DNA from: Acidocella aminolytica 101 = DSM 11237
GTDB lineage: Bacteria > Pseudomonadota > Alphaproteobacteria > Acetobacterales > Acetobacteraceae
Assembly (NCBI RefSeq): GCF_900129125.1
Contig: NZ_FQVJ01000023.1
Location: forward strand, 1-63,227
Direction of reading: 5' to 3'
Length of the DNA: 63,227 bases
Shown here: positions 15,052 to 37,917 of the stretch, one piece after another
Numbering within the stretch: position 1 is the first letter of the stretch
How the letters are laid out: every line of letters starts with the position of its first letter
Program-made: the position numbers and the translations under genes
Notes under the pieces: model-generated
Told to the model about the DNA's origin: nothing
Seen by the model: the letters and a program-made list of their open reading frames with translations, nothing else
The model's database searches: none

Positions 15052-15074
15052 CAAGATTCCGATTCGGAATCTTG
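15052..15074 (+). promoter_or_regulatory. Lux-box-like palindrome upstream of luxI-virB
   Basis: CAAGATTCCGA (15052-15062) and TCGGAATCTTG (15064-15074) are perfect 11-bp arms around a single T. The site lies between luxR and luxI, about 117 bp before the chosen luxI ATG, and shares its right arm with the dyad at 13775-13785. Position and symmetry make it the best candidate LuxR operator. Confidence 0.75.
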
Positions 15075-15190
15075 TGGTCAGAAAAACTCCGCATCTAAAG
15101 TCGAATCGACGCCCCTAAGGCGGATGAGATTTTGTGCCGACAAAGCGTCAGGCCAACGACAATGATGACATTTCATTGAAGGAAAGCGGA

Positions 15191-15811
15191 ATGGTAATGA
15201 TCATTACTTTGAGCAATGCTGACCGGGCCGAGCGACCTGCTTTGTTCGATCAGATGTTTCAATCGCGCGCGGCGGTATTTCATGACCGTCTGGGCTGGGA
15301 TGTGACGGTTGAGAATGGCCGCGAGATGGATTGGTATGATCGGCAAGCCGATCCGGTTTATCTGCTGGCTGTTGATGACGGGCAGCGCGTGCTCGGGTCC
15401 TTGCGACTGTTGGCGACAACCGGGCCGACCATGCTGCAAAGCGAGTTCAAGCATTTCTTTGATGACGATGTGGATGTCGCGGCACCCACCATCTGGGAAT
15501 GCACGCGGTTTTGCGTGCCGCCAGTTGCGGACGGTGCAGCCCCGAATGTGAGCAATGTCTCCGCCGAACTGCTGATTGGCTTATGCGAGCTTTGTCTGAA
15601 CTCCGGCATCGAATTTATACTTGGTGTGTACGAGACGCCGATGACCCGCCTTTATGCGCGGATCGGTTGGTGCCCGGAGAAGCTGGCGCAGGCGCGCCCG
15701 GAGATCGGCGACATTCAGGCTGGTATTTGGGAGGCCAACCCAGAGGTGCTTGCCACCATGCGTCGGCGTCTGTCCGCCCGGATCGGCGTGCGACAAATTG
15801 TGACCGCGTAG
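15191..15811 (+). CDS. Acyl-homoserine-lactone synthase (LuxI family)
   Basis: This 206-residue enzyme makes an AHL from S-adenosylmethionine and an acyl carrier. All invariant family residues are visible: Arg26, Phe30, Trp36, Asp47, Asp50, Arg72, Glu103 and Arg106 (LuxI/TraI 24, 28, 34, 45, 48, about 70, 100, 103). The ATG at 15191 is preferred over a GTG at 15134 because GAAAGGAAAGCGG precedes it and the family start pattern fits. Its stop abuts the virB1 ATG with no gap, so signal synthesis and the mating apparatus form one transcript. The arrangement recalls traI heading the trb operon of Ti plasmids. Confidence 0.9.
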   Translation: MVMIITLSNADRAERPALFDQMFQSRAAVFHDRLGWDVTVENGREMDWYDRQADPVYLLAVDDGQRVLGSLRLLATTGPTMLQSEFKHFFDDDVDVAAPTIWECTRFCVPPVADGAAPNVSNVSAELLIGLCELCLNSGIEFILGVYETPMTRLYARIGWCPEKLAQARPEIGDIQAGIWEANPEVLATMRRRLSARIGVRQIVTA

Positions 15812-16588
15812 ATGTCCGAGCAACGCGACAGGCTGACACGCGGTCCGTCCTTGGCTGTGGTGAGCTTTGTTGGGTTGACCAGCCTGATGGCATTTGCCGG
15901 CCCGCCCGCGCAAGCCACTTCCGCATCAGCTGTATCTGCCGCGAGGTTTTCCATTTTGGCAGGCCGCTGTGCGCCCGCCGTTCCAGAATGGGTGCTCGGT
16001 GCCGTCGCGCGTACAGAAAGCAATTTCCATCCCTGGCGGTTGCACGACAATACGGCGCGCGTCAGCAGCGATCCGCCCAGCCTGGAGGCGGCCGAGACCG
16101 AAGCGGCAGCGTGGATGGCCGCAGGTCATTCCGTCGATCTGGGGCTGATGCAGATCAACAGTGGCAATTTACCCGCGTTGGGGATGAATGTGAACGAAGC
16201 GCTAGACCCATGCGCTTCACTGGCGGCCGGCGCCGCGGTGCTACGGGCGGCTTATGGCGGCGGCCCGGTCAAGGCGGGGCAGCAGGCTGCTTTGCTGATG
16301 GCGCTCTCGGTTTACAACACCGGCTCGCCGCTCAAAGGCATCATGAATGGCTATGCGAGGACAGTGATGCGCAATGCCAGCGCGGTTCCTTTGTCGGCGC
16401 CTTTGCCACAAGCCCAACCAGATGCCACCCCGGATATGCCGCCCGCATGGAATGTTTCGGCCACCGGCAACTACACACAGGTCCATGGCGCACCATGGCT
16501 GGTGCCGCTGGGATTGGACATGGCCGGCAACAACACTGCCGCGGCAGCCGAGTCCGGTTCTCCACACCAAACGATGAGGTCGCCATGA
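15812..16588 (+). CDS. virB1: Lytic transglycosylase VirB1
   Basis: This 258-residue periplasmic muramidase opens the peptidoglycan for the type IV secretion channel. A signal peptide (about 12-36) is followed by the lytic transglycosylase core: GAVARTESNFHPWRLHDN with the catalytic Glu, VDLGLMQINSGNL, LDPCASLAAGAAVL and ALSVYNTGSPLKG. The ATG immediately follows the luxI stop. The C-terminal tail is Ala/Pro-rich and probably unstructured. Confidence 0.9.
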   Translation: MSEQRDRLTRGPSLAVVSFVGLTSLMAFAGPPAQATSASAVSAARFSILAGRCAPAVPEWVLGAVARTESNFHPWRLHDNTARVSSDPPSLEAAETEAAAWMAAGHSVDLGLMQINSGNLPALGMNVNEALDPCASLAAGAAVLRAAYGGGPVKAGQQAALLMALSVYNTGSPLKGIMNGYARTVMRNASAVPLSAPLPQAQPDATPDMPPAWNVSATGNYTQVHGAPWLVPLGLDMAGNNTAAAAESGSPHQTMRSP

Positions 16589-16947
16589 TGAACATGATCG
16601 CCCCGCTGCTTTTGGCGCAGGGGCAGAGATTGCGCATGACCAGTTTCTGGCCCGTGTTGGCCCGAGCGTGGCCCTTGGCGCTGCTGGTGGGAATGCTGGG
16701 CATTCCCACGCTCGCCTATGCCCAGACCGTCTCAGGCGGTGCCAGTCCACAGACCATGATCAATAATGTCTGCACCTTCATCCTGGGGCCGTTCGGCGAG
16801 ACGATCGCCGTGCTCGGGATTATCGGCATCGGGTTTTTGTTCATGTTCGGCCGGGCCTCGCTTGGGGTGATCGCGGGCATTATCGGCGGCATCGTCATCA
16901 TGTTCGGGGCCTCCTATCTGGGCCAGACCCTGACCGGGGGCGGTTGA
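16585..16947 (+). CDS. virB2: VirB2 major pilin
   Basis: This 120-residue propilin has a long leader (about 46 residues, ending TLAYAQ) and two hydrophobic helices (ETIAVLGIIGIGFLFMFG and GVIAGIIGGIVIMFGASYL), as in TrbC/VirB2 pilins. The start overlaps the virB1 stop (ATGA). The single Cys in NNVCTFI is at the mature N-terminal region. It would form the conjugative pilus. Confidence 0.88.
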   Translation: MMNMIAPLLLAQGQRLRMTSFWPVLARAWPLALLVGMLGIPTLAYAQTVSGGASPQTMINNVCTFILGPFGETIAVLGIIGIGFLFMFGRASLGVIAGIIGGIVIMFGASYLGQTLTGGG

Positions 16948-16948
16948 G

Positions 16949-17287
16949 ATGGAGCCCCTGGAGACCGATACGCTGTACCTCGCGGCAACGAGACCCGCGA
17001 TGTTCATGGGCGTGCCGCTCAGTCTCGGGGCCATGCTGCTCATGCTGGCCGGGCTGATCGTGGTGGTGCTGAAGAACCCGCTTTATCTGGCAGTCATGGC
17101 GCCACTCTGGCTGGCGGCACGCGAGCTGGTGGCGCGCGATTATAACGCGGTTGGTGTTGTGCTGCTTTATTTGCGCACCGCAGGCCGCTCGGTTGATAGC
17201 AAGCGCTGGGGCGGGGCGTCGGTGTCGCCGGCGCCGGTTCGTGGCCATCGTAATGGCCATGGGCGGGGGATGCTCGATGTGGGGTGA
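16949..17287 (+). CDS. virB3: VirB3 inner-membrane protein
   Basis: This 112-residue protein contains the typical VirB3 pattern: a short cytosolic start (ETDTLYLAATRPAMFMGVPL), one hydrophobic hairpin (about 22-62) and a basic tail. It begins 1 nt after the virB2 stop and runs 11 nt into virB4. VirB3 sits beside VirB4 in the inner-membrane complex and is needed for pilus assembly. Confidence 0.85.
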   Translation: MEPLETDTLYLAATRPAMFMGVPLSLGAMLLMLAGLIVVVLKNPLYLAVMAPLWLAARELVARDYNAVGVVLLYLRTAGRSVDSKRWGGASVSPAPVRGHRNGHGRGMLDVG

Positions 17288-19679
17288 TGCCAGCCGCACC
17301 GAGCGCGCCGCCACGCAGTATCTGCCCTATATCGGGCATATCGGGCCGCAAACCCTGCTGCTGGAAAATGGCGCGCTGCTGGCAATGGCAAATGTGGAGG
17401 GTCAGGCGTTCGAACTGGCTGACCATGCAGCGCGTAACGCCCGGCTGCGGCTGCTCAACACTCTGTACCGCAATCTCGCCGATGATAACGTCACCCTCCA
17501 TACGCATCTTATCCGCCATGAAGACGCGGGCGCGGTTCCCGCCCGCCGGTTCCGCTCGGGCTTTGCCCAGGCGTTGGATGAAACCTACAGGCGGAGCGCT
17601 CTGGATGGCCGGCTGTATCGGAATGATTATTTCGTCAGCCTGCTTGTTTCACCGCGCAGCCCGCTGGGCACGGGCATAGCCCGAAAATGGGCGCGGCGGG
17701 GGCGTAAAATACCGGAGACCTCGGAGGGGCTGGCGCGGGAGTTAGAGGATAAGTGGATCATTCTGGCGAATGGGCTGGAAGGGTTCAGAGTCCGGCGGCT
17801 GGGGGTGGTTGAGCGGGATGGTATTGCCTTCTCGGAAATAGCTGAGGCGCTGCGGTTGGTCGTCACCGCCCGGCCGCTACCCGTACCGATCATCTCCGGG
17901 CATCTGGGAGATTCGATCTACACTGACCGCGTGATTTGCGGGCGGCGCGGCATTGAAATCCGTGCCCCGGACAAAAGCCTGTTCGGGACCATTTTTTCCT
18001 TCCGCGAATACCCGGCCAAGACCAGGCCGGGGATGCTCAACACGCTGCTCTCGGTGCCGTTCCCCATCGTGTTGTCGCAATCCTTCGCCTTCGTCACCCG
18101 CGCCCAGGCGCAGGACCGGCTTTCCTTGAAATCCGCGCAGATGCTGGGCGCGCAGGATAAGGCGCTAAGCCAGATTGCCGGGCTGGATGAGGCGGCGGAT
18201 GCCCTGGCATCCAACGAATTCGTCATGGGCGCGCACCACCTCTCGCTGGCGGTATATGGCACTTCGCTGGCCGAGGTGGAGGAGCGGGCGGGGCTGGCGC
18301 GCGGACGGTTGGCCGATGCCGGGGCGGTGGTGGTTGAGGAGCGGCTAGGGTTGGAGGCGGCTTTCTGGTCGCAACTGCCAGGTAATCTGGAATGGCGGAC
18401 CCGGCCGGGGGCGATCAACTCACGCAATTTCGCCGGGCTTTCCAGCTTCGACAATTTCCCCGCCGGAGAAAAAGCCGGCCACTGGGGCGCTCCCATCGCG
18501 CGGTTCCGTACCGATGGCGGCACTGCTTATGATTACGTGCCGCATGTGGCCGATGTGGCGATGACGATCATCTTCGGACCCATCGGCTCCGGCAAGACCG
18601 CGCTGTTGATGTTTCTGCTCGCGATGTTCGAGCAGGCGATGGTGCCGCACGCTGACGCGGAGGGGCCGTCCCCACGGCCCAATGGGTCTGTGGTGTTTTT
18701 CGATAAGGACCGGGGCGGAGAATTGCTGGTCCGTGCCACGGCTGGGACATATCTCGAATTGCGGCGCGGCGAAGCCTCCGGCCTCGCACCCTTACGAGGC
18801 CTCAAGGATACCGAAGCGGATCGGGATTTTCTGCGGGGCTGGTTGATCGCGCTGGTGCAAAGCGACGGCAAAGGCGGTCTCGCCCCCGATGAAGAAAAGC
18901 GCCTGGAGCGCGCCATCGCCCGGCAGTTGAGTATGCCGGAGGAGTTGCGCTCGCTTGCGGGTCTGCGGGAGTTCCTCGGTCATACCGACCCGATGGGGCT
19001 TGGCCCCCGGCTTGAGAAATGGTGCCGAGGCAACGCCCTGGGCTGGGCGTTTGACGGCGAGCGGGATGACGTCAGTCTCGATGGCGCGATTACCGGCGTC
19101 GATATGACGCAATTGCTGGAGCATGACGAGGTCTGTGCGCCCGCCGGGGCTTATCTGCTCTACCGGGTGACGCAGATTCTCGATGGGCGGCGGGTGGTGC
19201 TGAGCATCGATGAATTCCGCTTCTATCTCAAGAACCCACAATTCGCCGCCGTGGTGGATAATCTGCTGCTGACCGTGCGCAAGAGCAATGGCGCGGTATT
19301 TCTGGCCTTACAGATGCCCGAGCATATTCTGGAAAGCCCGCTTGGGCCATCGATCGTGGCGCAATGCCAAACGAAAATCATGTTCCCGTCGCCGACGGCG
19401 GATCGAGCGGTCTATATTGATGGGCTCAAATGCACCGAAGGTGAGTATCGCGCCGTGCGCGAGTACATGGTGGTGGGCAAACGCCGGTTCCTGCTCAAAC
19501 GCGAGAAAGCCAGTGTCATCTGCGAATTCGATTTGAGTGCGATGCGCGACTATGTCGCCATTCTCTCAGGTCGCGCTAATACTGTGCGCTTCGCGGAAAA
19601 ACTGCGCCGGCGGCTGGGCGATGTTCCCGAGCAATGGCTGCCGGAATTTTTGCGTTCCTATCATGATGCCAAGGACTGA
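17277..19679 (+). CDS. virB4: VirB4 type IV secretion ATPase
   Basis: This 800-residue ATPase is the largest motor of the mating channel. Walker A is GPIGSGKTALL at about 434-444, and Walker B is VVLSIDEFRFYL at about 640-651. The N-terminal CagE/TrbE domain region contains YLPYIGHIGPQTLLLENGALL and NDYFVSLLVSP. The start at 17277 (ATG-TGG-GGT) is chosen inside the end of virB3; upstream codons show no family similarity. Confidence 0.9.
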   Translation: MWGDASRTERAATQYLPYIGHIGPQTLLLENGALLAMANVEGQAFELADHAARNARLRLLNTLYRNLADDNVTLHTHLIRHEDAGAVPARRFRSGFAQALDETYRRSALDGRLYRNDYFVSLLVSPRSPLGTGIARKWARRGRKIPETSEGLARELEDKWIILANGLEGFRVRRLGVVERDGIAFSEIAEALRLVVTARPLPVPIISGHLGDSIYTDRVICGRRGIEIRAPDKSLFGTIFSFREYPAKTRPGMLNTLLSVPFPIVLSQSFAFVTRAQAQDRLSLKSAQMLGAQDKALSQIAGLDEAADALASNEFVMGAHHLSLAVYGTSLAEVEERAGLARGRLADAGAVVVEERLGLEAAFWSQLPGNLEWRTRPGAINSRNFAGLSSFDNFPAGEKAGHWGAPIARFRTDGGTAYDYVPHVADVAMTIIFGPIGSGKTALLMFLLAMFEQAMVPHADAEGPSPRPNGSVVFFDKDRGGELLVRATAGTYLELRRGEASGLAPLRGLKDTEADRDFLRGWLIALVQSDGKGGLAPDEEKRLERAIARQLSMPEELRSLAGLREFLGHTDPMGLGPRLEKWCRGNALGWAFDGERDDVSLDGAITGVDMTQLLEHDEVCAPAGAYLLYRVTQILDGRRVVLSIDEFRFYLKNPQFAAVVDNLLLTVRKSNGAVFLALQMPEHILESPLGPSIVAQCQTKIMFPSPTADRAVYIDGLKCTEGEYRAVREYMVVGKRRFLLKREKASVICEFDLSAMRDYVAILSGRANTVRFAEKLRRRLGDVPEQWLPEFLRSYHDAKD

Positions 19680-19691
19680 CAGGAGGATCTT

Positions 19692-20414
19692 ATGAGACCA
19701 GCATTGTTCGCGGCTGTGATATTGGGCGCCGGCGTGATGTTTGACCTGGGCGCGGCGCAGCAGGCCGTAGCACAGATGGCGGTGATCGATAGCGCCAATC
19801 TGGCACAGAATATTCGAACCGCGGCACAGGAGGTTCTTGCGGTTGAGCAGCTCAAGGCGCAACTTGCCCAGCTTGAGCAGACTTATCAGATGTTCACCAA
19901 CCCCACCAATATTCTCGGTATGGCGGCGGGGATGGAAAATCAGTCCATTGAAAATCCGATGCCGGTGGCCAATGCGATGGCGGGATTGGTCGACGGCTCT
20001 ACTTCGCCCACCGGTGCGGCGGCGAGTTATTATAACCAAAGCCATGTTTATTCGCCAACGGATGGCTCGATCGCGAGTGCGCAGCTGAATGCCAATGGTA
20101 ATAGCATTGCTAATATCGAAGGCATGGCGGCAACGAATCTTGCTTCTATTCAGCAGCGCATGCAGGAATTGCCGAGTTTGGAATCGGATCTGAACGCGGC
20201 AAGTTCCATCACGCAGGTTGACGCGATCAACGGCCGTATCGCGGCGGAGAGCCAGTTCGTACAGGCGCAACAGGCGCAGGCGCAGAATCTTCAGGTGCTG
20301 GCCAGCGAGCAGGCGCAGTCTCAGCAACAGCAGCAACAAGAACAATATGATGAGGACCAGACCAATCTTGTAAGCGAATTGCAGGCTGATGCAGCCGCAA
20401 ATGGAGGGCAATGA
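19692..20414 (+). CDS. virB5: VirB5/TrbJ-like minor pilin protein
   Basis: This 240-residue secreted protein has a signal peptide to about residue 28 and a helical body with LAQLEQTYQMFTNPTNILGMA, typical of the VirB5 start, ending in a Gln-rich coil (about 190-225). VirB5 proteins cap the pilus and contact recipients. AGGAGG precedes the ATG. From about here to virB7 the DNA is visibly richer in A and T than its neighbours, which suggests that this segment was exchanged. Confidence 0.82.
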   Translation: MRPALFAAVILGAGVMFDLGAAQQAVAQMAVIDSANLAQNIRTAAQEVLAVEQLKAQLAQLEQTYQMFTNPTNILGMAAGMENQSIENPMPVANAMAGLVDGSTSPTGAAASYYNQSHVYSPTDGSIASAQLNANGNSIANIEGMAATNLASIQQRMQELPSLESDLNAASSITQVDAINGRIAAESQFVQAQQAQAQNLQVLASEQAQSQQQQQQEQYDEDQTNLVSELQADAAANGGQ

Positions 20415-20770
20415 TGTTTTACCCGTCCCGAATACAAATCATTGTTGCCGTTGTAGCGATAGCCGGTGTGAGTGGGTTGATCGGCGGCATCGAATATAGC
20501 GCACATCGCTCTGGCCGCTCGATATCCGGGCAAGGGCAGGTGTTCGAGCTCCCTCCAACCGCAATTGTGCATACAGCCAGCTGGTATGTCGCACATCCCG
20601 ACATCGTCAAACAGGACGAGGCGCGGTGCGGCGATAATGCCGCTACGATATCTCAAGCCGCCTGTCAGAATGTCGAGTCGGCCGAGGAGCAATTGCTTGC
20701 CGTTCAAATGCGCAATGCCGCCGCTCAAAATAATGCATTGGCGAAATCAAACGCCATGAAAGTGCCATGA
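20411..20770 (+). CDS. eexN: EexN-like entry-exclusion protein
   Basis: This 119-residue protein has one N-terminal membrane segment (about 9-26) and the EexN-type body: HTASWYVAHPDIVKQDEARC, then CQNVESAEEQL. Such proteins stop redundant mating with cells already holding the plasmid. Most relatives are lipoproteins; no lipobox is seen here, so anchorage is by the N-terminal helix. The start overlaps the virB5 stop, and virB6 follows. Confidence 0.75.
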   Translation: MMFYPSRIQIIVAVVAIAGVSGLIGGIEYSAHRSGRSISGQGQVFELPPTAIVHTASWYVAHPDIVKQDEARCGDNAATISQAACQNVESAEEQLLAVQMRNAAAQNNALAKSNAMKVP

Positions 20771-20777
20771 GGTAAAA

Positions 20778-21695
20778 ATGGCCAGTACGGACAATTACGC
20801 GCCATTCTATACTTTTGATCAAATCATCCAGGCGCCGTTTACGAGCAGCTTGGAGACAACTGTCAATGCGGCGATGTCAGCGATCCAGGGGCCTTTAACC
20901 GCACTTGTGGTTCTGTGGATCATTGTAACAGGTATCTTGGTTATGCGGGGTGATGTCGCTGTTCGCCAAGGCGTCAGCCGGATTATAACGATTAGCCTGG
21001 TCACCGGGGTTTTGATGTCAACAACTCTCTATGACCAGTATGTCGTAACGTTCTTCACGGTGGGGTTGCCAAACTATTTGGCATCTACGTTTTTGGGCGT
21101 CACGGGTTCGGCACCGGCCGCGCATCAATTCGACGCTCTTTGGAATTCGGCGTCAGAGGTCTTTGCCATCGCTGAAAATCACATGAATTTTCTGAATGTG
21201 CTTTACTCCGTTCAGCTTGCGATCTTGCAAAGCCTGATGGTCTTCCCTATTGGTTTGGTCTTTTTGATCTACGAAGCAACAAGAATATTAACGGATGTTG
21301 TCGTTTGCTTGGGATCGTTTGTTCTTGCGGGTTACTTGTTCGGAGCTACAAGGGGTGTCGCCGACCGGTTTGTTGGAAAGCTTATAGGACTAACGCTTTT
21401 GACGTTGCTGGTCGACATCGTTTTAGCCATTATCATCAATGGCTTTATCACCTACGTGAACAGCACATTGGGTGATGTCGCAACGGCATCAAAACCAGAA
21501 GCAATTTTGATTTGCACACAGCTCGTTATCTTCCTGGCGATTGGCAGCTTGATAACCTGCTTCCTGCCAGGGATTGCCGCCTATATTGGCGGTGGAATCT
21601 CTGTAAGTCCCCTTGCCATGGCTGCTTCGGCAACGCAGGCGAGGCGTATCGTTCAGACGTCACGTAGTAAAGCAAATACGGGGTCGGTCAGATGA
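20778..21695 (+). CDS. virB6: VirB6 polytopic membrane protein
   Basis: This 305-residue protein has at least six hydrophobic segments, including LTALVVLWIIVTGILVMRG (about 37-55), SLMVFPIGLVFLIYEATRI and ILICTQLVIFLAIGSLITCF. The conserved Trp in the first helix matches VirB6/TrbL. VirB6 carries DNA across the inner membrane. Base composition is clearly more A+T-rich than virB4 or virB8. Confidence 0.88.
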   Translation: MASTDNYAPFYTFDQIIQAPFTSSLETTVNAAMSAIQGPLTALVVLWIIVTGILVMRGDVAVRQGVSRIITISLVTGVLMSTTLYDQYVVTFFTVGLPNYLASTFLGVTGSAPAAHQFDALWNSASEVFAIAENHMNFLNVLYSVQLAILQSLMVFPIGLVFLIYEATRILTDVVVCLGSFVLAGYLFGATRGVADRFVGKLIGLTLLTLLVDIVLAIIINGFITYVNSTLGDVATASKPEAILICTQLVIFLAIGSLITCFLPGIAAYIGGGISVSPLAMAASATQARRIVQTSRSKANTGSVR

Positions 21696-21985
21696 ACGCA
21701 AACGCGCAGTTTGTTCCATATTTTGCTGAAAGCGCCAGTTGCTTTTTTTGGGGATGGATTTTGTGCCGGAAATTCATCTCTGCCAAACCGTTGCCTGGTG
21801 TTTTGCGCCTTGCTGGAAAATTCGTGAAATTGTGCTTGGTTCTTATCACTTTTGGCCTCCTCGCTGGTTGCTCCAATCCCGATCCGCTTGCTGTGGCGTC
21901 CGGGCCGCTCTTCGCGCTGAATGCGGGGCATTGGCAGCCAACGCCGCGTGATTTGGCGGCACCCCCAAAAGTCGCGGATCGGTAG
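21692..21985 (+). CDS. virB7: VirB7-like outer-membrane lipoprotein
   Basis: This protein has 97 residues from the ATG that overlaps the virB6 stop. A lipobox (LLAGC) follows a hydrophobic stretch at about residues 44-58. A GTG at 21824 would give a shorter, more normal lipoprotein (MKLCLVLITFGLLAGC), and I think it is the likelier start. The mature part is only about 39 residues and carries PLFALNAGHWQPTPRDL. VirB7 pins the outer-membrane core complex and partners VirB9, encoded two genes downstream. Confidence 0.7.
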   Translation: MNANAQFVPYFAESASCFFWGWILCRKFISAKPLPGVLRLAGKFVKLCLVLITFGLLAGCSNPDPLAVASGPLFALNAGHWQPTPRDLAAPPKVADR

Positions 21986-21991
21986 GGCGCT

Positions 21992-22684
21992 ATGGACCAA
22001 TCCTCAGGTGCTTTCCCCCTCGCACCCGCCATGCTGGAGCAGCATTACAAGCAAGTGCTGTCCTTCCAGGAAGCGCGGACGCGCTCAGCGCGGCTGCTCT
22101 CCAAAGGTGCCTTGGTGGCGCTAGTGGTTTCCATGGTGGCCAATGCCGGTCTGGGTTGGGCTGTGGCCTCCATGCTGCCGTTGACCAAATTGGTGCCGGT
22201 GTATTTTCTGATCCGCCCGGACGGCACGATCGATGATTCTGTTTCGCTTTCCACCTTGCCGGCTTCCACGCATCAGGCGGTGATCCGCTCTGCCCTCTGG
22301 CAATATGTGCAGATGCGCGAGGGGTACTCCTATGACACAGCGCGCTATCGCTACGACATTGTCTCCGGCATGTCGGATGCTGCCACCAAAGCCGCGTATC
22401 AAGCCTGGTTCAATTATCCGAACCCGCAATCCCCACAAGTGATCATCGGCAAGAACGGTGTGGTCACGGTTGAGCCGATCTCAGTGGCGCTGATCGGGCC
22501 GGGTGTGGCGCAGGTGCGTTATCAGCGGATTTTCGAGGCGGGCATGAATAGCGCTGTCACGACCACCTGGACCGCCACCGAACAATTCGAGCAGGTCGAC
22601 ACCTTGCCCGATGCTGAACGCCTGACCGATCCGGGCGGGATCATTATCACCAGCTATCAGGATGAAGAGGATACCGCACCATGA
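21992..22684 (+). CDS. virB8: VirB8 inner-membrane scaffold
   Basis: This 230-residue protein has a cytosolic start, one membrane helix (about 41-62), and a periplasmic NTF2-like domain with LVPVYFLIRPDG, MREGYSYDTARYRYDIVS and VRYQRIFE. VirB8 nucleates the mating channel and binds VirB9 and VirB10. The stop overlaps the virB9 ATG by 4 nt. Base composition returns to that of the rest of the operon. Confidence 0.9.
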   Translation: MDQSSGAFPLAPAMLEQHYKQVLSFQEARTRSARLLSKGALVALVVSMVANAGLGWAVASMLPLTKLVPVYFLIRPDGTIDDSVSLSTLPASTHQAVIRSALWQYVQMREGYSYDTARYRYDIVSGMSDAATKAAYQAWFNYPNPQSPQVIIGKNGVVTVEPISVALIGPGVAQVRYQRIFEAGMNSAVTTTWTATEQFEQVDTLPDAERLTDPGGIIITSYQDEEDTAP

Positions 22685-23607
22685 GGCGGGTTCTTGCAGC
22701 GGCCGCATTTGGCTGGTGGCTGACCATGGCGGTGGCGCATCAGGCTCATGCGGATCAAACCCCGGTCGCCGGACGGTATGACAGCCGCATGCGCTATGTC
22801 GCCTATAATCCCGGGCAGGTGGTGCATTTATCGACCATCGTGGGAGCAACGATGGTGGTCAGCTTCGCCCCCGACGAAACCGTAACCTCCGTCGCGGAAA
22901 CCGACAGTCTGCATCTGGCGGCTGTGCCGAAGGGGAATTATCTGTTCCTCAAGCCCAGTGCGGCGCTGACATTGCAGCCAATTATTGTGCTGACCCAGCG
23001 CTCGGATGGGTCGCTGCGCCGCTATGTGTTTGAGATCGAGACGGTGAGCGCGCCGAGCACGGCGGATGGCGCCAAGGGCGTGTTCTATGCGGTGCAGTTC
23101 ACCTATCCGGCGGACGCGGCCAAAGCTGCGGCGGCGCGCGCGGCTCTCGATGCCAAAAAGGTGGAGCAGCTCAACCAGCAGGCCTTGCGGCGGGCGACGC
23201 AAATGGCGGCGAATGCGGCGCTGCAAGATGAGCAGACCAATCCCAGTGCCGGGCCGCGCAATTACCGCTATGTTGCCCAAGGTGACCGCTCCCTCGCGCC
23301 GGTGGCGGTGTGGGATAACGGCTATTCCACCCTGCTGCAATTTGCCGGGAATCAGCGCATTCCTTCGATCTTCGTGATCGACCCGGATGGCAAGGAGGCC
23401 AGCGCCAGTTACGCGGTCAATGGCGATATCGTACAGCTTGACCAGACCGCGCGGGAGTGGCGGCTGCGCGATGGCGGCACGGTGCTGAATATCTACAATC
23501 TTGGCTATCAGTCGGTGGGTGGTAATCCCGAAACCGGGACGACTAGCCCGGACGTGTCGCGGGTCGTTGTGCCGCCAAGCGCGCCGCAGAAAGAGGCATC
23601 GCCATGA
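22681..23607 (+). CDS. virB9: VirB9 outer-membrane core protein
   Basis: This 308-residue periplasmic/outer-membrane protein has a signal peptide (to about 25, HAHA/DQ). The N-terminal domain contains DSRMRYVAYNPGQVVHLST, the classic VirB9 opening, and the C-terminal domain contains RNYRYVAQGD, VWDNGYSTLLQF and GKEASASYAVNGDIVQLDQ. With VirB7 and VirB10 it forms the outer core ring. It overlaps both neighbours by 4 nt. Confidence 0.92.
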   Translation: MRRVLAAAAFGWWLTMAVAHQAHADQTPVAGRYDSRMRYVAYNPGQVVHLSTIVGATMVVSFAPDETVTSVAETDSLHLAAVPKGNYLFLKPSAALTLQPIIVLTQRSDGSLRRYVFEIETVSAPSTADGAKGVFYAVQFTYPADAAKAAAARAALDAKKVEQLNQQALRRATQMAANAALQDEQTNPSAGPRNYRYVAQGDRSLAPVAVWDNGYSTLLQFAGNQRIPSIFVIDPDGKEASASYAVNGDIVQLDQTAREWRLRDGGTVLNIYNLGYQSVGGNPETGTTSPDVSRVVVPPSAPQKEASP

Positions 23608-24809: not shown

Positions 24810-25839
24810 GGCGGCGCAATTGCTGAATTACCTGATGCAGCCTCTGGCGCCCTGGCTGGATGACCCGGCGACGGAGGAGATTTGCATCAACCGGCCCGGC
24901 GAGCTGTTCGTGCGCCAGCGCGGCCAGTTCCGTGCCGAAGCAGTGCCGTTCGATTATGCGGACCTCGAGGATATTGCCACCTTGGCCGGGGCATTGCGCA
25001 AACAGGATGTCGGGCCGCGCAGCCCGCTTTGTGCCACGGAGCTGCCGGGTGGTGAGCGGCTGCAAATCTGCATGCCGCCCGCCGTGCCGCGAGGTTCGCT
25101 GAGTATCACCATCCGCAAGCCTGGGGTCTCGGTGGCGCCGCTCGACTCGCTGGTGAGCCGCTACCGAGTGACGGGCTGGAATCTCTGGGCTGGCCGTGAG
25201 CAAGCGGCGCAGCATGATTATGCCGCTTTGCTCGCTCTGTACGATGAAGGGGATATCCAAAAGTTCCTGGAACGCGCGGTGCGGGCGCGGCTGACTATTC
25301 TGCTTTGTGGCGCCACCGGCTCAGGCAAGACGACCATGAGCAAGACCCTGATCAGCGCCATCCCGGCCCATGAGCGCCTGATCACCATCGAGGATACGCT
25401 CGAGCTGGTGATTCCGCAGCCCAACCATGTCCGCCTGCTTTACGGCAAGGATAATATCGGCTCAGCCCGGGTGACGCCGGAGATGCTGCTGCAGGCCAGC
25501 CTGCGCATGAAGCCGGACCGGATCTTGTTGCAGGAACTGCGCGATGACTCGGCCTGGACCTATATCAATGAGATCGTCTCCGGCCATCCTGGTTCGATCA
25601 CCACCATCCATGGCCGGAACCCTGAACAGGCCTTCCGGCGGCTGTTCGCGCTGGTGAAGGGCAGCCCGCAAGGCGGGCGTTGGGATGACAGAACACTGAT
25701 GGAGTTCTTGTCCGCTGCTGTCGATCTGATCATCCCGTTTCACAATGAAGGGGCGGTTTATCAGATCGGCGAGGTCTGGTTCGCCGCCGATGCCGCTCGT
25801 CGTGGTGAGACGGCAGCGCATTTGCTGCGGGCGGCTTGA
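24799..25839 (+). CDS. virB11: VirB11 traffic ATPase
   Basis: This 346-residue hexameric ATPase has Walker A LLCGATGSGKTTMSKTL at about 168-182, the Asp box IEDTLELVI, Walker B RILLQELRDDSAW and the His box GHPGSITTIHG. The start at 24799 overlaps the virB10 stop by 11 nt and matches the family N-terminus (LLNYLMQPLAPWLDDPATEEICINRPGE region). It would switch the machine between pilus building and DNA transfer. Confidence 0.92.
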   Translation: MVGEAAQLLNYLMQPLAPWLDDPATEEICINRPGELFVRQRGQFRAEAVPFDYADLEDIATLAGALRKQDVGPRSPLCATELPGGERLQICMPPAVPRGSLSITIRKPGVSVAPLDSLVSRYRVTGWNLWAGREQAAQHDYAALLALYDEGDIQKFLERAVRARLTILLCGATGSGKTTMSKTLISAIPAHERLITIEDTLELVIPQPNHVRLLYGKDNIGSARVTPEMLLQASLRMKPDRILLQELRDDSAWTYINEIVSGHPGSITTIHGRNPEQAFRRLFALVKGSPQGGRWDDRTLMEFLSAAVDLIIPFHNEGAVYQIGEVWFAADAARRGETAAHLLRAA

Positions 25840-25842
25840 GCC

Positions 25843-27708
25843 ATGAGCATCACCCTCTCAGACCAAGCGGGGCAGCTCATCGTCAAAGCCGGTTTTGGTA
25901 TTATCCTGGCGCTGATTGCCTGGACGGTGGTGGCGTCCTTTGTGTTTCTGTTTGGGACCGGGCTGTTGCACGCATTTGCCCACCCTTTCTGGCAATGGTG
26001 GCTCTATGCGCTGAACTTTGATGGCAACCCGCGTGTCGCGCTCTGGCTTAAAATTGGCGCTGGGGTAGGCGTTTTACCGCCGGGACTGATGATCGGGGCA
26101 CTGATTTATCGTGCCCAGCGCGTGGTAGGACCAAAGCTCCGGCGGCCGCTATTGGGCGGCATCGTCAAATCCCCTCTGGCGGTGACGGATAATCATGGCC
26201 GCGCGGCCTGGATGAGGATGGCGGCGGCGCGGGAGCGGTTCCCGGGGCCTAACCCTGGCTTTGGTGGTATCGTCGTGGGCGAGGCTTATCGGGTCGATCA
26301 GGACAAAATAGCGGCACGGCGCTTCGACCCGGAGGACGCCAAAAGTTGGGGGCAGGGCGGGCAGGCGCCGCTGCTGATTGACCCGTGCCGGGAGGGGCCA
26401 ACGCACTCGCTGATGATCATCGGCAGCGGCGGCTTTAAGACCACCACGGCGGTCTCCAGCCTGCTGCATTGGACGGGTGCTGCGGTCATTCTCGACCCTG
26501 CTGGCGAACTGGCGCCGATGCTGCGGGAGGCGCGCAAGGCGATGGGGCACAAGGTGCATGAACTCGATCCGCGCGCGGGGACTGGGTTCAATGTGCTGGA
26601 CTGGATCGACACCACCTCACCACTGGCGGCAACGAATATCGATTCCGTGGTGGCCTGGGTCTGCGGGGATCACAAGCCGGCAGCTAAGAAGGATGATTTT
26701 TTCGATAGCATGGCCCGTAATGTCGTGCGCTGCTTCCTGGCGCATATTTTGTTCGACGAGGCTGCACCCGAAAAACTTAAAACCTTGCGGGCGGTCCGTC
26801 AGGCAATCGCCATGCCGGTCAAGGAGGTCCGGGCCGTGTTGCGCGGGATATTTGAGACGAGCCCCAGCCTCTATGCGCGCCAGCTGGCGGGGCCGGTTTG
26901 CGGGCTGGTCGAGGAGACGTTCAGCGGGGTGATCGGCAGTGCCGCCGAGCTCACCACTTGGCTCGCCAACCCTGCCTTCGCCAATTTGGTCTCCGGCAAC
27001 AGTTTTAGGACCTCCGCCCTGCTCGACGGCAAGGTGACGATCTTTCTCAAAATGCCGTTGAAGGCGCTGGAGACAGAGCCTGGCATATCGCGCACCATCA
27101 TCGGCGCGTTGCTCAATGCCGTGTACGAGGCCGATGGGGCGATGCAGGGGCGGGTGCTGTTCCTGCTCGATGAGGCGGCCCGGCTGGGCTATATGAAAAT
27201 TCTGGAGACCGCGCGCGATGCCGGACGCAAATACGGCATCACCATGCAGCTGCTCTACCAGTCGAGCGGGCAGATCGTCGAACAATGGGGCGAGCAGGGC
27301 AAGCGGTCTTGGTATGATGGCGTGTCTTATCGCTGCTATGCGGCGGTACAGGATCTGGACACCGCCACCGAGTTGGAAAATTCGTTTGGCACCTACGGTG
27401 TCATGGCAAGCTCCGAGGGCATGAATACCGGTAAATCCGGCAAAGCGATGCAATCTTCTTCGCTCTCGCGCGGTTCGAATATTTCTTATCATGAAATCGG
27501 GCGCCCGCTGATCCGCAAGGCCGAACTGATGCACGATGTGCGCGACGACGAAATGTTTGTACTGGCGCGCGGCATGGCGCCGCTGCGCTGCGGACGGGCG
27601 ATTTATTTTAGGCGTCCCGAGATGCGCGCGCGTGTGGCGGAAAACCGCTTCCACAAGCCGGCACATCAGACCGGCGCCAAGCAGCAATCAAACCGGGAAG
27701 GAGCATAA
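25843..27708 (+). CDS. virD4: VirD4/TraG coupling protein
   Basis: This 621-residue inner-membrane ATPase recruits the relaxase-DNA complex to the channel. Two N-terminal membrane segments (about 12-40 and 68-90) are followed by IIGSGGFKTTTAVSSLLHW (Walker A of the VirD4 class, about 190-205) and VLFLLDEAARLGYMKILE (Walker B). It lies 3 nt behind virB11. The C-terminal tail is basic and may contact the relaxosome. Confidence 0.92.
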   Translation: MSITLSDQAGQLIVKAGFGIILALIAWTVVASFVFLFGTGLLHAFAHPFWQWWLYALNFDGNPRVALWLKIGAGVGVLPPGLMIGALIYRAQRVVGPKLRRPLLGGIVKSPLAVTDNHGRAAWMRMAAARERFPGPNPGFGGIVVGEAYRVDQDKIAARRFDPEDAKSWGQGGQAPLLIDPCREGPTHSLMIIGSGGFKTTTAVSSLLHWTGAAVILDPAGELAPMLREARKAMGHKVHELDPRAGTGFNVLDWIDTTSPLAATNIDSVVAWVCGDHKPAAKKDDFFDSMARNVVRCFLAHILFDEAAPEKLKTLRAVRQAIAMPVKEVRAVLRGIFETSPSLYARQLAGPVCGLVEETFSGVIGSAAELTTWLANPAFANLVSGNSFRTSALLDGKVTIFLKMPLKALETEPGISRTIIGALLNAVYEADGAMQGRVLFLLDEAARLGYMKILETARDAGRKYGITMQLLYQSSGQIVEQWGEQGKRSWYDGVSYRCYAAVQDLDTATELENSFGTYGVMASSEGMNTGKSGKAMQSSSLSRGSNISYHEIGRPLIRKAELMHDVRDDEMFVLARGMAPLRCGRAIYFRRPEMRARVAENRFHKPAHQTGAKQQSNREGA

Positions 27709-27712
27709 CCCA

Positions 27713-27937
27713 ATGTCTGAAATCGATGCCGATCTCGACCGTGCCGCAGCCGCGTACTGGCTGTCGGTGGCCAGTAAATCCGGGCCGGAGAAGAATGCGG
27801 CCCTCTCCCGGGCGGCGAGCCTGCTGCGCGATGCGCGGGCGGAAGCGCGTATCCCTGACAGCGCGCGCCAGCCAACACTCAATGATCTGGACGCGCCGCC
27901 CATGGATGTGGCGCATCGGCGGCGGCTGACGCCGTGA
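27713..27937 (+). CDS. Small conserved transfer-region protein
   Basis: This 74-residue acidic-then-basic protein is predicted to be helical. GGAAGGAG precedes the ATG at 27713, 4 nt behind virD4. No family is recognised. The SEIDADLDRAAAAYWLSVAS start and the DLDAPPMDVAHRRRLTP end have no known motif. Its place between the coupling protein and relaxase genes suggests a small relaxosome accessory factor. Confidence 0.55.
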   Translation: MSEIDADLDRAAAAYWLSVASKSGPEKNAALSRAASLLRDARAEARIPDSARQPTLNDLDAPPMDVAHRRRLTP

Positions 27938-27989
27938 CGATCCTTGGACGGTCCGCGCCAGGTTGCGTCAGCATTCCTCCGCTCCTGTG

Positions 27990-28397
27990 ATGGAACGTCA
28001 GAGCGACAAGGCGGAACATCGCAGGGGGCAGCCAGCGCCACCTATATCCCTGGAGTTGATTGCCGCGCGGCTGGCGGCGTTAGATGCCGGGCAGGCGGCG
28101 ATGAGTGGCGCGCTGGGGCTGATGCTGGATACGCTGCATGTGCAGACAACGCTGCTGCGCAAGCTCAACGAGTTCGCCGCTGAGGATGCGGCACCTTCGC
28201 CGCTGCTCACAACACTCCAGAGCCTCACCGCCGCGATCATGGAGCTGGATGCGTCGGTTGGGGATGTGGAACGCAAATTCGACGGGCTGGCGCAAATTCT
28301 GAGCATGGCCTTTGACGGACCGCCTGCCGAAACGCCTTCCGATCAAAACGGACCGGCATGGCCGCAAGGTCCGGCCATGGACGGCGAGGGCGGTTGA
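27990..28397 (+). CDS. Transfer-region protein of unknown function
   Basis: This 135-residue protein is helical, with heptad-like leucines in the middle (LIAARLAALDAGQAAMSGAL, TLLRKLNEF, LQSLTAAIMELDASVGDVE), so it is probably a coiled-coil oligomer. The stop abuts the relaxase start. The start could also be a TTG at 27963. No family is recognised. Its position fits an oriT-binding or relaxase-partner role, but there is no DNA-binding motif I can point to. Confidence 0.55.
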   Translation: MERQSDKAEHRRGQPAPPISLELIAARLAALDAGQAAMSGALGLMLDTLHVQTTLLRKLNEFAAEDAAPSPLLTTLQSLTAAIMELDASVGDVERKFDGLAQILSMAFDGPPAETPSDQNGPAWPQGPAMDGEGG

Positions 28398-31300
28398 ATG
28401 CTGACCTATCGCACCGGCGCAGCAGGGGCATCGGGTGCAGCGCGGTTCATGAGCGAGCATTTATTGCAGCAGACCTTGTCCCCGGAAATGGCGGCGATGG
28501 CAGAATATTACGAGCAGGGTGTAACCCCACCGACGCTCGCCGATGCCGCCGCTTCGCGTTACGGCCGGTTCATGGCGGGTGGCACGCTTTTGGCGGCCGA
28601 GGTGCTGGATGGGCTGGTGCAGGCGGAAGCGGCGCGCCTCGCTGAGAGTGGCGTGTCTTGGGGGCAGGGCCGGGAACAAATCGGATATGAGTTGGTCTTG
28701 CCCGCCGTCGCGGCCTTCGCGGCGGCGGGGCTGGCGGGCCGAGACGAGGCGCTGGCTTGTCTGTCGCGTCTGTCAGGGATTGGCCCCGGTTATGGTGTCG
28801 GTAATGCTGGCAGCGCAAATAGCGCGCATGCCACTGCCACCGAGGACATCGCTCAGCGCCTGGATGCCGCAATGGCCGCGGCCGCCAGTACACCAGACCG
28901 CAGCAGCGCAACGGCAACGCCACGGCGGGACATGAACCCGCTGCTGGCGCGGCGGCTGGGGATTGAGCCGCGGCGCGGGCTGAAGCCAGATGAGGTGGCG
29001 TGCCTGTTGAATGGCCGGCGCGCCGATGGCGGCTTCATCGAAGGGAAGGTGCGGCGCGCCTCGAGCCTGCCACTGGCGCAGATATTTGGGCTTGATGCGG
29101 GGCAGGTGCCGACACGGGCGCAATTAGAGCAGATGCTGGTGGGGCGGAAGGCCAATGGCGAGGCGTTATCCGCCGAGGCAGCTGAGCGGGCGGTGCGGCG
29201 TTTGCTCTCGGGCCTGGGTGTGAAGGACAAAACACCTGCCCCCGAACAGCTTGCGTATATTCTGGCCGGTCGGGACGCCGAGGGCAGGGAAGTGAGTGCT
29301 CGCCAATACCGTGCCATTCTTGAAGCCGCGAAGATGCGGATTGGCTATATCGACCTGACTTTCTCCGCGCCCAAGTCCCTTTCCATTGCCTGGGCCTTTG
29401 CGCCCACCAAAGCCGAACAGGCGATGCTGCATCAGGCGCACCGGGACGCGATCGACAATGTCATGGCGGTCATCGAGCACGAGATCGGCCGCGCTTCGAT
29501 CGGGGATGCGGCGAAGCGGGGCTATGAGGCTGGCGCCATTGGCTGGGTGTCCTTCGATCATTATGCGGCGCGGCCCACGATTGAGATCGTGCGGGCGGAT
29601 GAGCGTGGGGAGCCGGTGACAGAGTTGCACACGCTGACCGGTACGCAAGGCCGCGCGCCGGGCGACATGCAGATGCACACCCATGTCGCGCTGTTCAACA
29701 TCGTGGAGACGCCGAGCGGGCGGGTGGGTAGCATCAACCTCGCCTTGCTTGAAGGGAGGATCCATGAATGGGGCGCGCTGTATCAGGCCTATCTCGCCAA
29801 TCATCTGCGCGCCCATGGCGTGGCGGTGGAGCTCGATGCCCGCACCGGGATGGCCAAGCTCTCCGCTGTGCCAGAAAGCGTCGTGGCGCAATTCAGTAAG
29901 CGGACCGTAAGCGGCACCGAGGCGGCACGTGTTTATGCGCGGGCGCAGGGGCTTGAGTGGGATGATCTCGCGCCCGCCCGGAAAATCGCCCTGCTCAAAT
30001 CCGGGGTACAGAATCCGCGCGAAGCCAAGAGCGATGATGTCAGCGACCTTGCCGCCTGGCAGGCAATGGCGGCGAGGCTCGGCTACCAGCATCGCAGCGT
30101 CTTGCGCCCTGGTGAAATCGCCCCCCTGCCGAGCCGGGAGCAGCGGCTGGAGAGCGCATTCCAGGCGGCCTTGCCATTGCTGAGCAAGCAGTTCGACCGG
30201 CGGGCGGTGATTGACGGCGCCGATGCCCGGATCGCCGCTGCCAAGGGGCTGATCGCCGCGGGGATTGGCGAGGCCAACGACGTGGATGCCCTGACCGAAG
30301 CCTTCCGGGAGCGGGGCGTGCAGCGTCAGGGTGAGGATGCCGCCTTGATCTGGGGCCGGGTGCCGGGGCGGCAGGGCCGGGACCGCGTGGCGATAACCAC
30401 CACGCTGGAACTGCGTGAGGAACAGCGGCTTATTGAAACGGTCCAGGCTGGGGCGCGGGATCGAAGTGCAACCCTCACACGTAAAGCCATCGCGACGGCG
30501 GTGGCCACATTCCCGGAGATCGATTTTACCAGCGCGCATGGTAGGGCACAGCGGCAGATTATCGACCAGTTGGGCACTGGCGGGCGGATTGGTTTGGCCA
30601 TTGGCGTGGCGGGTTCCGGCAAAAGCACGTTGCTGAAGCCCTTGGTTCGGGCCTGGCAGGAGGATGGCAGGGCCGTGCATGGCATTGCCCTGGCGTGGCG
30701 GCAATCGGATGATTTGGCCGGGGCGGGTATTCCGGCGGGTGATACCAGGGCGGTCGCGGCCTTTTTTCGGGGTATAGAGCGCGGCTCGATCCGGCTTGAT
30801 CGCAAATCGGTCGTGGTGGTCGATGAGGTGGGACTACTGGGCACGCGGCAATTGAACGTGATCATGGCGGCGCAGGCGGCGCACAAATTCCAGTTGGTGA
30901 TGATTGGTGACCCGAAGCAGATGCAGGCGGTGGAGGCCGGGCCGGTGATCGAGCTACTGCGTCGGGCGTTGGGGGCCGACAAGGTGCCGGAATTAGGTTC
31001 CTCGGTGCGGCAGACAGCGGAGCAAGAGCGCGAGACCGTGCTGATGTTGCGCAATGGCCAGACGGAAGAAGCGATACGCCGCAAAGATGAAAACGGCACC
31101 CTCAAAATTGTGCCGGGCGGGTATGAGGACGCGGTACAATACATTGCCCAGCTTTGGCGGCAACGGTGGGAGGCAAACCGGGACCGGGTGGACTTCAGCA
31201 TTTCGGTGAGCGCGCCGAGCAACGCGGAGGCGCATGATATCAGCCGCGCCATCCGCCAGCAGCGCCGGGATAGGGGAGAGATCGGGATGGATGTGGTGAC

Positions 31301-32216
31301 ACTCAGGGCCACCGACGGTGCAGGGGAGCGGGACTATGAATTGGCGCTCGCCTTGGGTGACCGGGTGCGGTTGTTCAGGCGGACCAATGCCAAGTTCACG
31401 GAGACCGGCACGGTCGGGAATATCGGGCGCAACGGCACGGTGCTGGAAATTACCGCCATTGATGAGGCTGGACTGACCTTGAAGACCATCACGGGAAGGG
31501 AAGGGCTGGTGACGTGGGAGAGCTTGCGGGGCGAGCCAAGTGGCAGAGTTCAGTTGGCCTACGGCGATGCGTTGACCACCAACACCGCGCAAGGGAGTAC
31601 GGTTACCGAACATATTCATGCGATGCCGGCTGGCACGAAGCTGGTCTCGGCATTCGGGGCCTATACCTCAGGCAGCCGCCACCGGGAGCAGAGTTTTATC
31701 GTGACCTCGGAGGGGGTGGAGCGCGCCGAGATCATCGCCCGGCGGCCGCTTGGCGACCGGCGCGAGATTGGGCGCGCTGATGTGCTGAACAACATCGTAC
31801 GCAATTTTGCACAAGCACCCGAGAAGCAAGCGGCGCTGGGGTTGATGGAGCGTGCGGCCGGGCTGCGGCGGGGAACGGTTCAGGTTGTGCAGAGAGTGCA
31901 CCAGGCGGGGGAAGCGCGGGGGAGCGGCCTGGAGCGGCCATCAGTGCTGCGGGAACGGATGTTGAGCCGCCGGATAGCGCTGGCATTTGAAAAGCAGCTG
32001 CCTGGTTTGGCGGCACAACTCCGGCGTCATGGTGAGGTGCTGGGGCGGGTGGCCCGTATCGGCGCGGATTTGGCGGAAATACTTGCCAGCCTTGCCCGCC
32101 GCCAGGCGGCAAGCCGCCAGAGCGATATGGAATTTTGGCGTGAACTCGGCCAGCGGGCTGAGCGAGTGCCCGGGTGGGAGAAGCAACCCCGGCAATCGCG
32201 GCGGCGCGGGCGGTGA
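28398..32216 (+). CDS. traA: MobF-family conjugative relaxase-helicase (TrwC/TraA type)
   Basis: This 1272-residue protein nicks oriT and unwinds the transferred strand. The catalytic tyrosine pair is YY at 37-38 (AEYYEQG, as in TrwC). The conserved YIDLTFSAPKSLSIAW begins at about 317, and the metal-binding histidines are H388, H427 and H429 (MQMHTHVALFN). A RecD-like helicase follows, with GVAGSGKSTLLKPL at about 740 and VVVVDEVGLLGTRQL. Between the tyrosines and the DLTFSAPK motif lie about 280 residues, far more than the roughly 60 in TrwC. This includes three tandem copies of a segment with L..LL.GR.A.G (near 199-211, 243-254 and 284-296). Transfer-operon membership and MobF class are clear. 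Confidence 0.9.
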   Translation: MLTYRTGAAGASGAARFMSEHLLQQTLSPEMAAMAEYYEQGVTPPTLADAAASRYGRFMAGGTLLAAEVLDGLVQAEAARLAESGVSWGQGREQIGYELVLPAVAAFAAAGLAGRDEALACLSRLSGIGPGYGVGNAGSANSAHATATEDIAQRLDAAMAAAASTPDRSSATATPRRDMNPLLARRLGIEPRRGLKPDEVACLLNGRRADGGFIEGKVRRASSLPLAQIFGLDAGQVPTRAQLEQMLVGRKANGEALSAEAAERAVRRLLSGLGVKDKTPAPEQLAYILAGRDAEGREVSARQYRAILEAAKMRIGYIDLTFSAPKSLSIAWAFAPTKAEQAMLHQAHRDAIDNVMAVIEHEIGRASIGDAAKRGYEAGAIGWVSFDHYAARPTIEIVRADERGEPVTELHTLTGTQGRAPGDMQMHTHVALFNIVETPSGRVGSINLALLEGRIHEWGALYQAYLANHLRAHGVAVELDARTGMAKLSAVPESVVAQFSKRTVSGTEAARVYARAQGLEWDDLAPARKIALLKSGVQNPREAKSDDVSDLAAWQAMAARLGYQHRSVLRPGEIAPLPSREQRLESAFQAALPLLSKQFDRRAVIDGADARIAAAKGLIAAGIGEANDVDALTEAFRERGVQRQGEDAALIWGRVPGRQGRDRVAITTTLELREEQRLIETVQAGARDRSATLTRKAIATAVATFPEIDFTSAHGRAQRQIIDQLGTGGRIGLAIGVAGSGKSTLLKPLVRAWQEDGRAVHGIALAWRQSDDLAGAGIPAGDTRAVAAFFRGIERGSIRLDRKSVVVVDEVGLLGTRQLNVIMAAQAAHKFQLVMIGDPKQMQAVEAGPVIELLRRALGADKVPELGSSVRQTAEQERETVLMLRNGQTEEAIRRKDENGTLKIVPGGYEDAVQYIAQLWRQRWEANRDRVDFSISVSAPSNAEAHDISRAIRQQRRDRGEIGMDVVTLRATDGAGERDYELALALGDRVRLFRRTNAKFTETGTVGNIGRNGTVLEITAIDEAGLTLKTITGREGLVTWESLRGEPSGRVQLAYGDALTTNTAQGSTVTEHIHAMPAGTKLVSAFGAYTSGSRHREQSFIVTSEGVERAEIIARRPLGDRREIGRADVLNNIVRNFAQAPEKQAALGLMERAAGLRRGTVQVVQRVHQAGEARGSGLERPSVLRERMLSRRIALAFEKQLPGLAAQLRRHGEVLGRVARIGADLAEILASLARRQAASRQSDMEFWRELGQRAERVPGWEKQPRQSRRRGR

Positions 32217-37916: not shown

Positions 37917-37917
37917 A

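Follow-up and report, generated by a model that had tools for sequence, protein, structure and literature searches.

On the plasmids pTi and pAt15955, traI heads the trb operon, and the quorum systems of the two interact (PMC7856919); on pAtP4, the N-acyl homoserine lactone (AHL) synthase CinI controls the AvhB (VirB-type) pore, the tra genes and conjugative transfer, as judged from the transcriptome (PMC4992315). In Dinoroseobacter shibae, a VirB-type pore is AHL-induced on two sister plasmids (PMC4886583), and on R388 the stbABC operon lies divergent from the region of the origin of transfer (oriT); its StbA is bound to direct repeats and, when lost, lets transfer rise ~50-fold, and without StbB transfer is blocked (PMC3098194). 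All statements on these four articles, here and below, refer to excerpts of them. In the present study, we analysed a stretch of 63,227 bases from Acidocella aminolytica 101 = DSM 11237 (hereafter the window; contig C45 of a genome of 3.96 Mb in 109 contigs), which carries a real and conserved conjugation operon on one strand, headed by luxI, continued by VirB-type pore genes, closed by the gene for a MobF relaxase and preceded by luxR and a palindrome (Table 1). Most likely, this luxI-to-mobF operon makes up the greater part of a quorum regulon that has two promoters and is arranged around a putative oriT.

Like the Ti-type TraR/TraI-trb system, the locus opens its pore operon with the AHL synthase gene and has a LuxR-type activator, inverted-repeat boxes before the transfer promoters and two co-resident quorum systems (PMC7856919). 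Unlike that system, which uses a Trb pore, it combines a VirB-type pore with a MobF relaxase, and its second target would be an stb-like operon; with luxI first and a palindromic box but no Trb-type pore, the window would work like Ti-type quorum conjugation and is not a member of it. The contrast with Ti plasmids drawn in the initial annotation was right in outline. With pAtP4 it shares the (here predicted) control of a VirB-type pore and of transfer by an AHL synthase, but there cinI lies in a separate cinR-cinI-cinX region outside the avhB operon, with traA, traC and traD as the relaxosome genes (PMC4992315). The VirB-type pore, the AHL link and the two sister plasmids are held in common with D. 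shibae, where, in contrast, the relaxase is VirD2, luxI lies on other replicons and the AHL control of transfer was left as a hypothesis (PMC4886583).

In the annotated records of the sphingomonad plasmids pISP0 and pNIN3, luxR-luxR-luxI likewise precedes, on one strand, a virB operon and a coupling protein gene, but a dioxygenase gene and a hypothetical gene stand between luxI and virB1, and the plasmids are typed MOBP (pISP0 also MOBQ). Their LuxI belongs to a distant clade, and their VirB4 does not group with the Acidocella clade; therefore, the sphingomonad arrangement was probably assembled separately. When a joined LuxI-VirB1-VirB2-VirB3 query was run against 72,556 plasmid records, 2,250 were matched, and luxI and virB occurred together in two (pISP0 and pNIN3) of the 60 matches listed. 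No description of a luxI-headed VirB/MobF system was found among the titles and abstract openings listed from the open-licence literature. Since AHL-controlled VirB-type pores and the sphingomonad luxI-headed virB operons are already known, we regard the present system as a variant and not as a first case.

The VirB-type set (mating-pair formation type T, MPF_T) is complete, from virB1 to virB11 together with the coupling protein, and Pfam bore out every gene that the initial annotation had named, luxR and luxI as well as those of the VirB-type pore and the MobF relaxase; the unit further holds an EexN-like gene and two small genes without an assigned family. We placed the luxI start at the conserved ATG at 15197, the mechanical open reading frame beginning at GTG 15134. 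As originally stated, the luxI stop abuts the virB1 start with zero gap, which leaves no room for the strong promoter and terminator that would have spoken against a single unit, and a consensus scan of 13700-33500 yielded no excess of promoter-like (8 against 6.7 expected) or terminator-like (15 against 18.1) signals. The accompanying phrase that gene after gene overlaps was a little strong, the 16 junctions from luxI to mobF comprising 7 overlaps, 2 zero gaps, 6 gaps of 1-12 nt and one of 52 nt; the tight packing it conveyed holds, with 15 of the 16 at 12 nt or less. Similarly, the gene first called virD4 does encode a coupling protein, but its best score is that of the Ti-type TraG (626.7 bits, cut-off 443). 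The residues W66, Y70 and D79 of LuxR, which we take to be the TraR pocket residues, were correctly reported as kept: they align with W, Y and D of NGR234 TraR and are invariant in 9/9 rows, the window included.

The palindrome before luxI is indeed perfect. A palindrome by itself was rejected as proof, another with 11-nt arms being found at 4610-4633 and 1/20 mononucleotide shuffles having reached 11. Its support comes from conservation: in an alignment of 11 of the 12 rows (genome G306 left out), its 23 columns show a mean identity of 0.97 versus 0.49 outside and form the conserved block of the luxR-luxI intergenic region, so that the palindrome represents more than chance. An exact copy of the 21-mer TGTCAAGATTCCGATTCGGAA stands at 11 of 12 luxI sites near a core (see below), the twelfth (G327 C273) having one change, and also at 10/17 divA sites; allowing up to two mismatches, it was found in 3 of the 299 genomes of a family sample, all three of the same genus. 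This set of 12 luxI sites, which includes G327 C273, differs slightly from the 12 with an exact 13-bp core considered below, which have G308 C53 instead. From position and conservation, the box is a probable binding site of LuxR.

On the other side of luxR, three genes on the opposite strand, here called divA, divB and divC, are preceded by a second box, an inverted copy of the first. Like stbABC-oriT-trw of R388, the window has a three-gene divergent operon beside the (here putative) oriT, direct repeats upstream of it, a VirB-type pore and a MobF relaxase (PMC3098194); unlike the window, R388 has no quorum genes in its record annotation, and DivA and DivB are at best putative homologues of StbA and StbB. 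The profile match of DivA to StbA was weak (hhalign E 8.6e-4, probability 23%), that of DivB to R388/R46 StbB was not significant (E 0.049, probability 1%), and the library scans returned no family match for divB. The box is present at 17/17 cores of the putative oriT flanked by divA in the orientation of the window, and 6 of these 17 divA boxes have two or more changes relative to the 21-mer. The Acetobacter aceti plasmid pAACEN1 carries divA-divB-divC relatives divergent from a MobF that is 52% identical to that of the window, and it has no LuxR or LuxI match; thus, the stb-like/MobF layout probably predates the lux genes.

To see how widely the arrangement recurs, we surveyed 38 genomes of the genus, of which 10 had LuxI matches and 16 VirB4 matches. 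VirB8 relatives, returned at 14 loci, group the window with Acidocella, the named matches at 91-92% including Acidocella aquatica, Acidocella sp. KAb 2-4 and metagenome-assembled Acidocella. The luxI-virB1 junction, which the initial annotation had proposed to seek elsewhere, does recur: virB1 adjoins luxI at 12 of 13 related luxI loci, window and contig C23 included (13 of 14 matches, in 9 genomes; the LuxI of G317, 29% identical and in another context, was left out), and the zero gap is kept in 6 of the 7 loci read, window included, also at a LuxI identity of 75-77%. Contig C23 of the same genome holds a second complete module (L010-L012) with two boxes in the same places, its identity to the window being 74% for LuxR, 75% for LuxI, 90% for VirB8 and VirB11, 91% for the coupling protein and 79% for MobF. 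The recognition helices of the two LuxR proteins are near-identical, a hint that the sister plasmids may cross-talk. A third VirB-type system in this genome lies on C83 (L081), with a VirB4 ~50-52% identical and its own MobF match on the contig; no lux genes were seen there.

Among 20 close VirB4 loci (at least 74% identity), lux genes lie upstream at 10 and not at 4 (one of them with only ~520 bp visible), while 6 are cut by contig ends. In the VirB4 tree, the 15 close Acidocella rows form one clade, with C83 and the lux-bearing sphingomonad systems outside. As to a single gain of the lux genes, the trio without lux genes joins the main lux clade (80/73 support), and G306, which has lux genes, falls outside it. 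The closest plasmid relatives of LuxI are rhizobial, 48.5-55% identical (best 40 of 811 matches), and the two annotated rhizobial plasmid luxI genes examined are not beside conjugation genes. A derivation of the lux genes from the sphingomonad luxI-virB plasmids was also considered, and the LuxI tree, with long-branch warnings for G306 and others, does not support it. A PLSDB search for the same plasmid gave one 107-bp match only, although records very near the genome of the window may be excluded there. At two loci, matches come in two pieces, VirB11 and MobF each at L021 (Acidiphilium iwatense) and LuxR on G327 C396, for which decay or sequencing error are possible.

Between the second box and luxR lie an iteron array and an 82-bp conserved block. 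The array of C23 has different letters, with the same period of 12 and 5.5 copies. The core of the block, GACCAAGGAATGCTAGCGCAT, occurs at 29 sites in 15/38 genomes versus one for the reversed control, and 28 credible sites remain once L112, a chance match inside a gene, is dropped. Twelve of these are flanked by divA and a box to the left and by luxR to the right, one has luxR with the left side cut, one has divA and a box with the right side cut, four have divA and a box without luxR, and ten have no box, though in three of the ten (L094, L106, L111) a stretch resembling divA is seen in the opposite orientation. At this block (L092-L120), plasmid halves have been swapped among genomes. The window and G324 have the left side in common (98.9% over 13701-13973) and a LuxR just 73% identical; the window and G315 have the right side in common (LuxR 96%, LuxI 100%) and a divA 47% identical; and contig C77 of the same genome and G187 C20 agree at 99% over 500 nt on the right, with no match on the left. 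Either relaxase-mediated joining at an oriT or homologous recombination in the conserved block could explain the exchange.

Conservation and flank exchange together lead us to interpret the block as a putative oriT. It may instead be a replication origin or the site of a site-specific recombinase, the flanks having been exchanged by other recombination; we think this unlikely, though, in its favour, the relaxase site is putative and the core was not found in pAACEN1 in spite of its related MobF. The block does, however, sit between the stb-like operon and the transfer genes, as the R388 oriT does, and 10 of the 28 credible cores have no adjoining box, as expected of an oriT used in trans. This alternative concerns the oriT part only and is compatible with quorum control of the two operons.

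Of the four boxed loci that lack luxR, two are in G187 and one each in G068 and G326. G187 has no LuxR, LuxI or VirB4 match and has MobF only as a 97-residue fragment, while in G068 and G326 LuxR is on another contig. On G187 C22 the likeness to the window stops at 13973, just past the core, and on G068 C1 (L124) the longest open frame starts at the core edge and, by eye, begins a type I restriction-modification operon. An operon resembling a type I restriction-modification system, also read by eye, lies near the oriT core at L130 (G187 C4). In view of these boxed loci, we tentatively suggest, as a possibility short of an even chance, that the quorum circuit serves as a standard common to a plasmid pool: halves would swap at oriT, the boxes would stay compatible and any resident LuxR could drive any partner, and satellites made up of divAB, box and oriT, without adjoining luxR, luxI or pore, might eavesdrop on the signal of a helper to time their mobilisation.

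For the window itself, we assign a probability of roughly 0.7 to a self-induced plasmid conjugation regulon, in which a LuxI/LuxR quorum switch would drive the luxI-to-mobF transcript together with divABC. At high cell density, AHL made by LuxI would activate LuxR, which would bind the palindrome before luxI and give one long transcript, yielding more LuxI (a positive feedback), the VirB-type pore, the coupling protein and the MobF relaxase. At the second box, LuxR would drive the divergent divABC operon, a presumed analogue of R388 stb, whose induction would turn the plasmid away from stable inheritance and towards transfer; the DNA between both promoters contains the iterons, a likely DivA site, and the likely oriT. 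The single quorum-controlled transcription unit put forward in the initial annotation thus remains the best, if still unproven, reading, strengthened by the kept junction and box; that earlier picture lacked the second box, the divergent stb-like operon, the putative oriT, the second module and the precedents.

Several observations weigh against this regulon. The pattern CT-N12-AG is common in lux boxes, and the luxI box, checked by eye, does not have it; nor did the promoter scan find a consensus promoter behind that box. In G306, luxI and virB1 do not abut, ~820 bp with an AraC-like gene (by eye) lying between them, and no box is recognisable before divA; in favour of the regulon, its LuxR (48-50% identical) and its luxI palindrome have both changed, and the palindrome is still the best one in a 1.9-kb stretch. 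Finally, the 13-mer TTCCGAWTCGGAA, present at 44 sites in the genus versus 4 for the reversed control, is found 12 times before luxI, 17 times before divA and 15 times in neither position, and 9 of these 15 are in genomes without a full-length LuxR match: G187 (1), G307 (1), G311 (2), G304 (1; only a 37% C-terminal match) and G322 (4), where only the first 17 LuxR residues are visible, at a contig end. The 13-bp core therefore has another use as well. Among these other-context sites (L155-L169), 14 were read (the G307 site was left out), and 10 of the 14 adjoin a gene resembling the DUF7146/Toprim gene of L156, the likeness being judged by eye and Pfam applied to L156 only; on the opposite side, a PIN-type toxin-antitoxin pair is found at several.

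These sites bring in a rival that is quite unlikely overall and nevertheless real, especially for the divA box: the palindrome could be the operator of a plasmid-wide, KorA- or StbA-like repressor keeping silent the transfer operon, the stb-like operon and a primase/toxin-antitoxin region, with luxI riding along and LuxR acting elsewhere or only aiding derepression. A core in at least three contexts, with 9 of the 15 other-context sites in genomes without a full-length LuxR match, would fit such a repressor, as would G187 with its two boxed divA loci and no LuxR match; the StbA sites of R388 are likewise found in several promoters (PMC3098194). However, the arms at the other-context sites differ, with TGTCAAGATTCCGATTCGGAA at 0/14 against 11/12 at luxI sites, and in G306 it is the luxI palindrome that changed along with LuxR, whereas the other-context site retained the core. 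Least probable of all, luxR-luxI could be a passenger cassette before a constitutive or otherwise driven virB operon, with quorum control weak or absent, for the pore does not need lux genes, given that 4/20 close virB loci lack them upstream, but the junction and box kept between luxR, luxI and virB1, and the missing promoter excess inside the unit, speak against it.

Table 1. Features of the quorum and conjugation region of the window.
Feature	Coordinates	Strand	Basis or remark
divC, 234 aa, third gene of divergent stb-like operon	11497..12201	-	no Pfam family; 45% identical on C23, 31% in Acetobacter pAACEN1
divB, 311 aa, Walker-A ATPase-like	12189..13124	-	GRGKTGKTT invariant in 7/7 rows; Walker reading by eye
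divA, 180 aa from conserved ATG, helix-turn-helix-like N-terminus (by eye)	13160..13702	-	alignment of 7
Second box, before divA, TGTCAAGATTCCGATTCGGAAgttg	13764..13788	-	21-nt exact inverted copy of luxI box at 13768-13788
~12-bp iteron array between divA box and putative oriT	13821..13890		tandem repeats, period 12, 5.8 copies, score 47
Putative oriT region, 82-bp conserved block	13892..13973		core GACCAAGGAATGCTAGCGCAT at 13942-13962
luxR, AHL receptor/activator	14122..14859	+	Pfam Autoind_bind 3.5e-25, GerE 9.3e-11; best structure match NGR234 TraR
Box before luxI, 23-bp perfect palindrome, 11-nt arms	15052..15074		sequence and conservation
luxI, AHL synthase	15197..15811	+	Pfam Autoind_synth 1.3e-35, 123 bits vs cut-off 24; LasI 6.6e-18
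virB1	15812..16588	+	SLT
virB2	16585..16947	+	TrbC/VirB2
virB3	16949..17287	+	VirB3
virB4	17277..19679	+	CagE_TrbE_VirB
virB5	19692..20414	+	T4SS
EexN-like entry-exclusion lipoprotein candidate	20411..20770	+	NCBIfam NF033894 E 6e-7, 29.2 bits, under cut-off 33
virB6	20778..21695	+	TrbL/VirB6
virB7	21692..21985	+	VirB7
virB8	21992..22684	+	VirB8
virB9	22681..23607	+	CagX
virB10	23604..24809	+	TrbI
virB11	24736..25839	+	T2SSE; 74-nt overlap with virB10, start may be further in
Coupling protein, VirD4/TraG family	25843..27708	+	T4SS-DNA_transf 5.5e-76; TraG 626.7 bits
74-aa conserved protein, no family match	27713..27937	+	read by eye; kept in relatives
135-aa conserved protein	27990..28397	+	homologue (33% over 69 aa) adjoins mobF in pAACEN1
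MobF relaxase-helicase	28398..32216	+	Pfam TrwC 4.2e-36, 125.4 bits vs 25; AAA_30 1.7e-35; NF041492 MobF 140.2 bits vs 100
TacA-like antitoxin and GNAT toxin candidate	32270..33213	+	53 nt past mobF, possibly operon tail

Beyond the regulon, the window has two TacA/GNAT toxin-antitoxin pairs, one at 10616-11472 and the other just past mobF; a pair downstream of mobF is also present on C23 and in L014, L017 and L021, and none was seen in the 0.5 kb visible past mobF in L016. Cargo at 5266-9858 and 33359-43279 comprises a multicopper oxidase, a P-type metal ATPase, a cation efflux protein, a two-component system and an RND pump. At 54368-61440, a sigma-54 activator is followed by hydantoinase A, hydantoinase B and acetone carboxylase gamma domains, that is, an acetone carboxylase-like operon, and an Xre-RES toxin-antitoxin pair at 52544-53673 has a close relative in G187 C22. 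A reverse transcriptase domain lies on the minus strand at 61723-62394, near the contig end. At the other end, the window (147-1094) and C23 (147-1121) both open with related Toprim/DUF7146 genes that share their start coordinate, so the assembly probably broke at a common repeat.

If the proposed regulon is true, AHL-controlled conjugation would extend to acidophilic Acetobacteraceae and to a VirB/MobF machine, and an stb-like stability-transfer operon would be added as a second likely quorum target. The Acidocella plasmids would also offer natural tests of whether a common regulatory language can persist among plasmids that exchange halves at oriT, and of whether mobilisable satellites listen to the quorum signal of a helper plasmid, and the presence of two related modules in one genome makes cross-talk directly testable.

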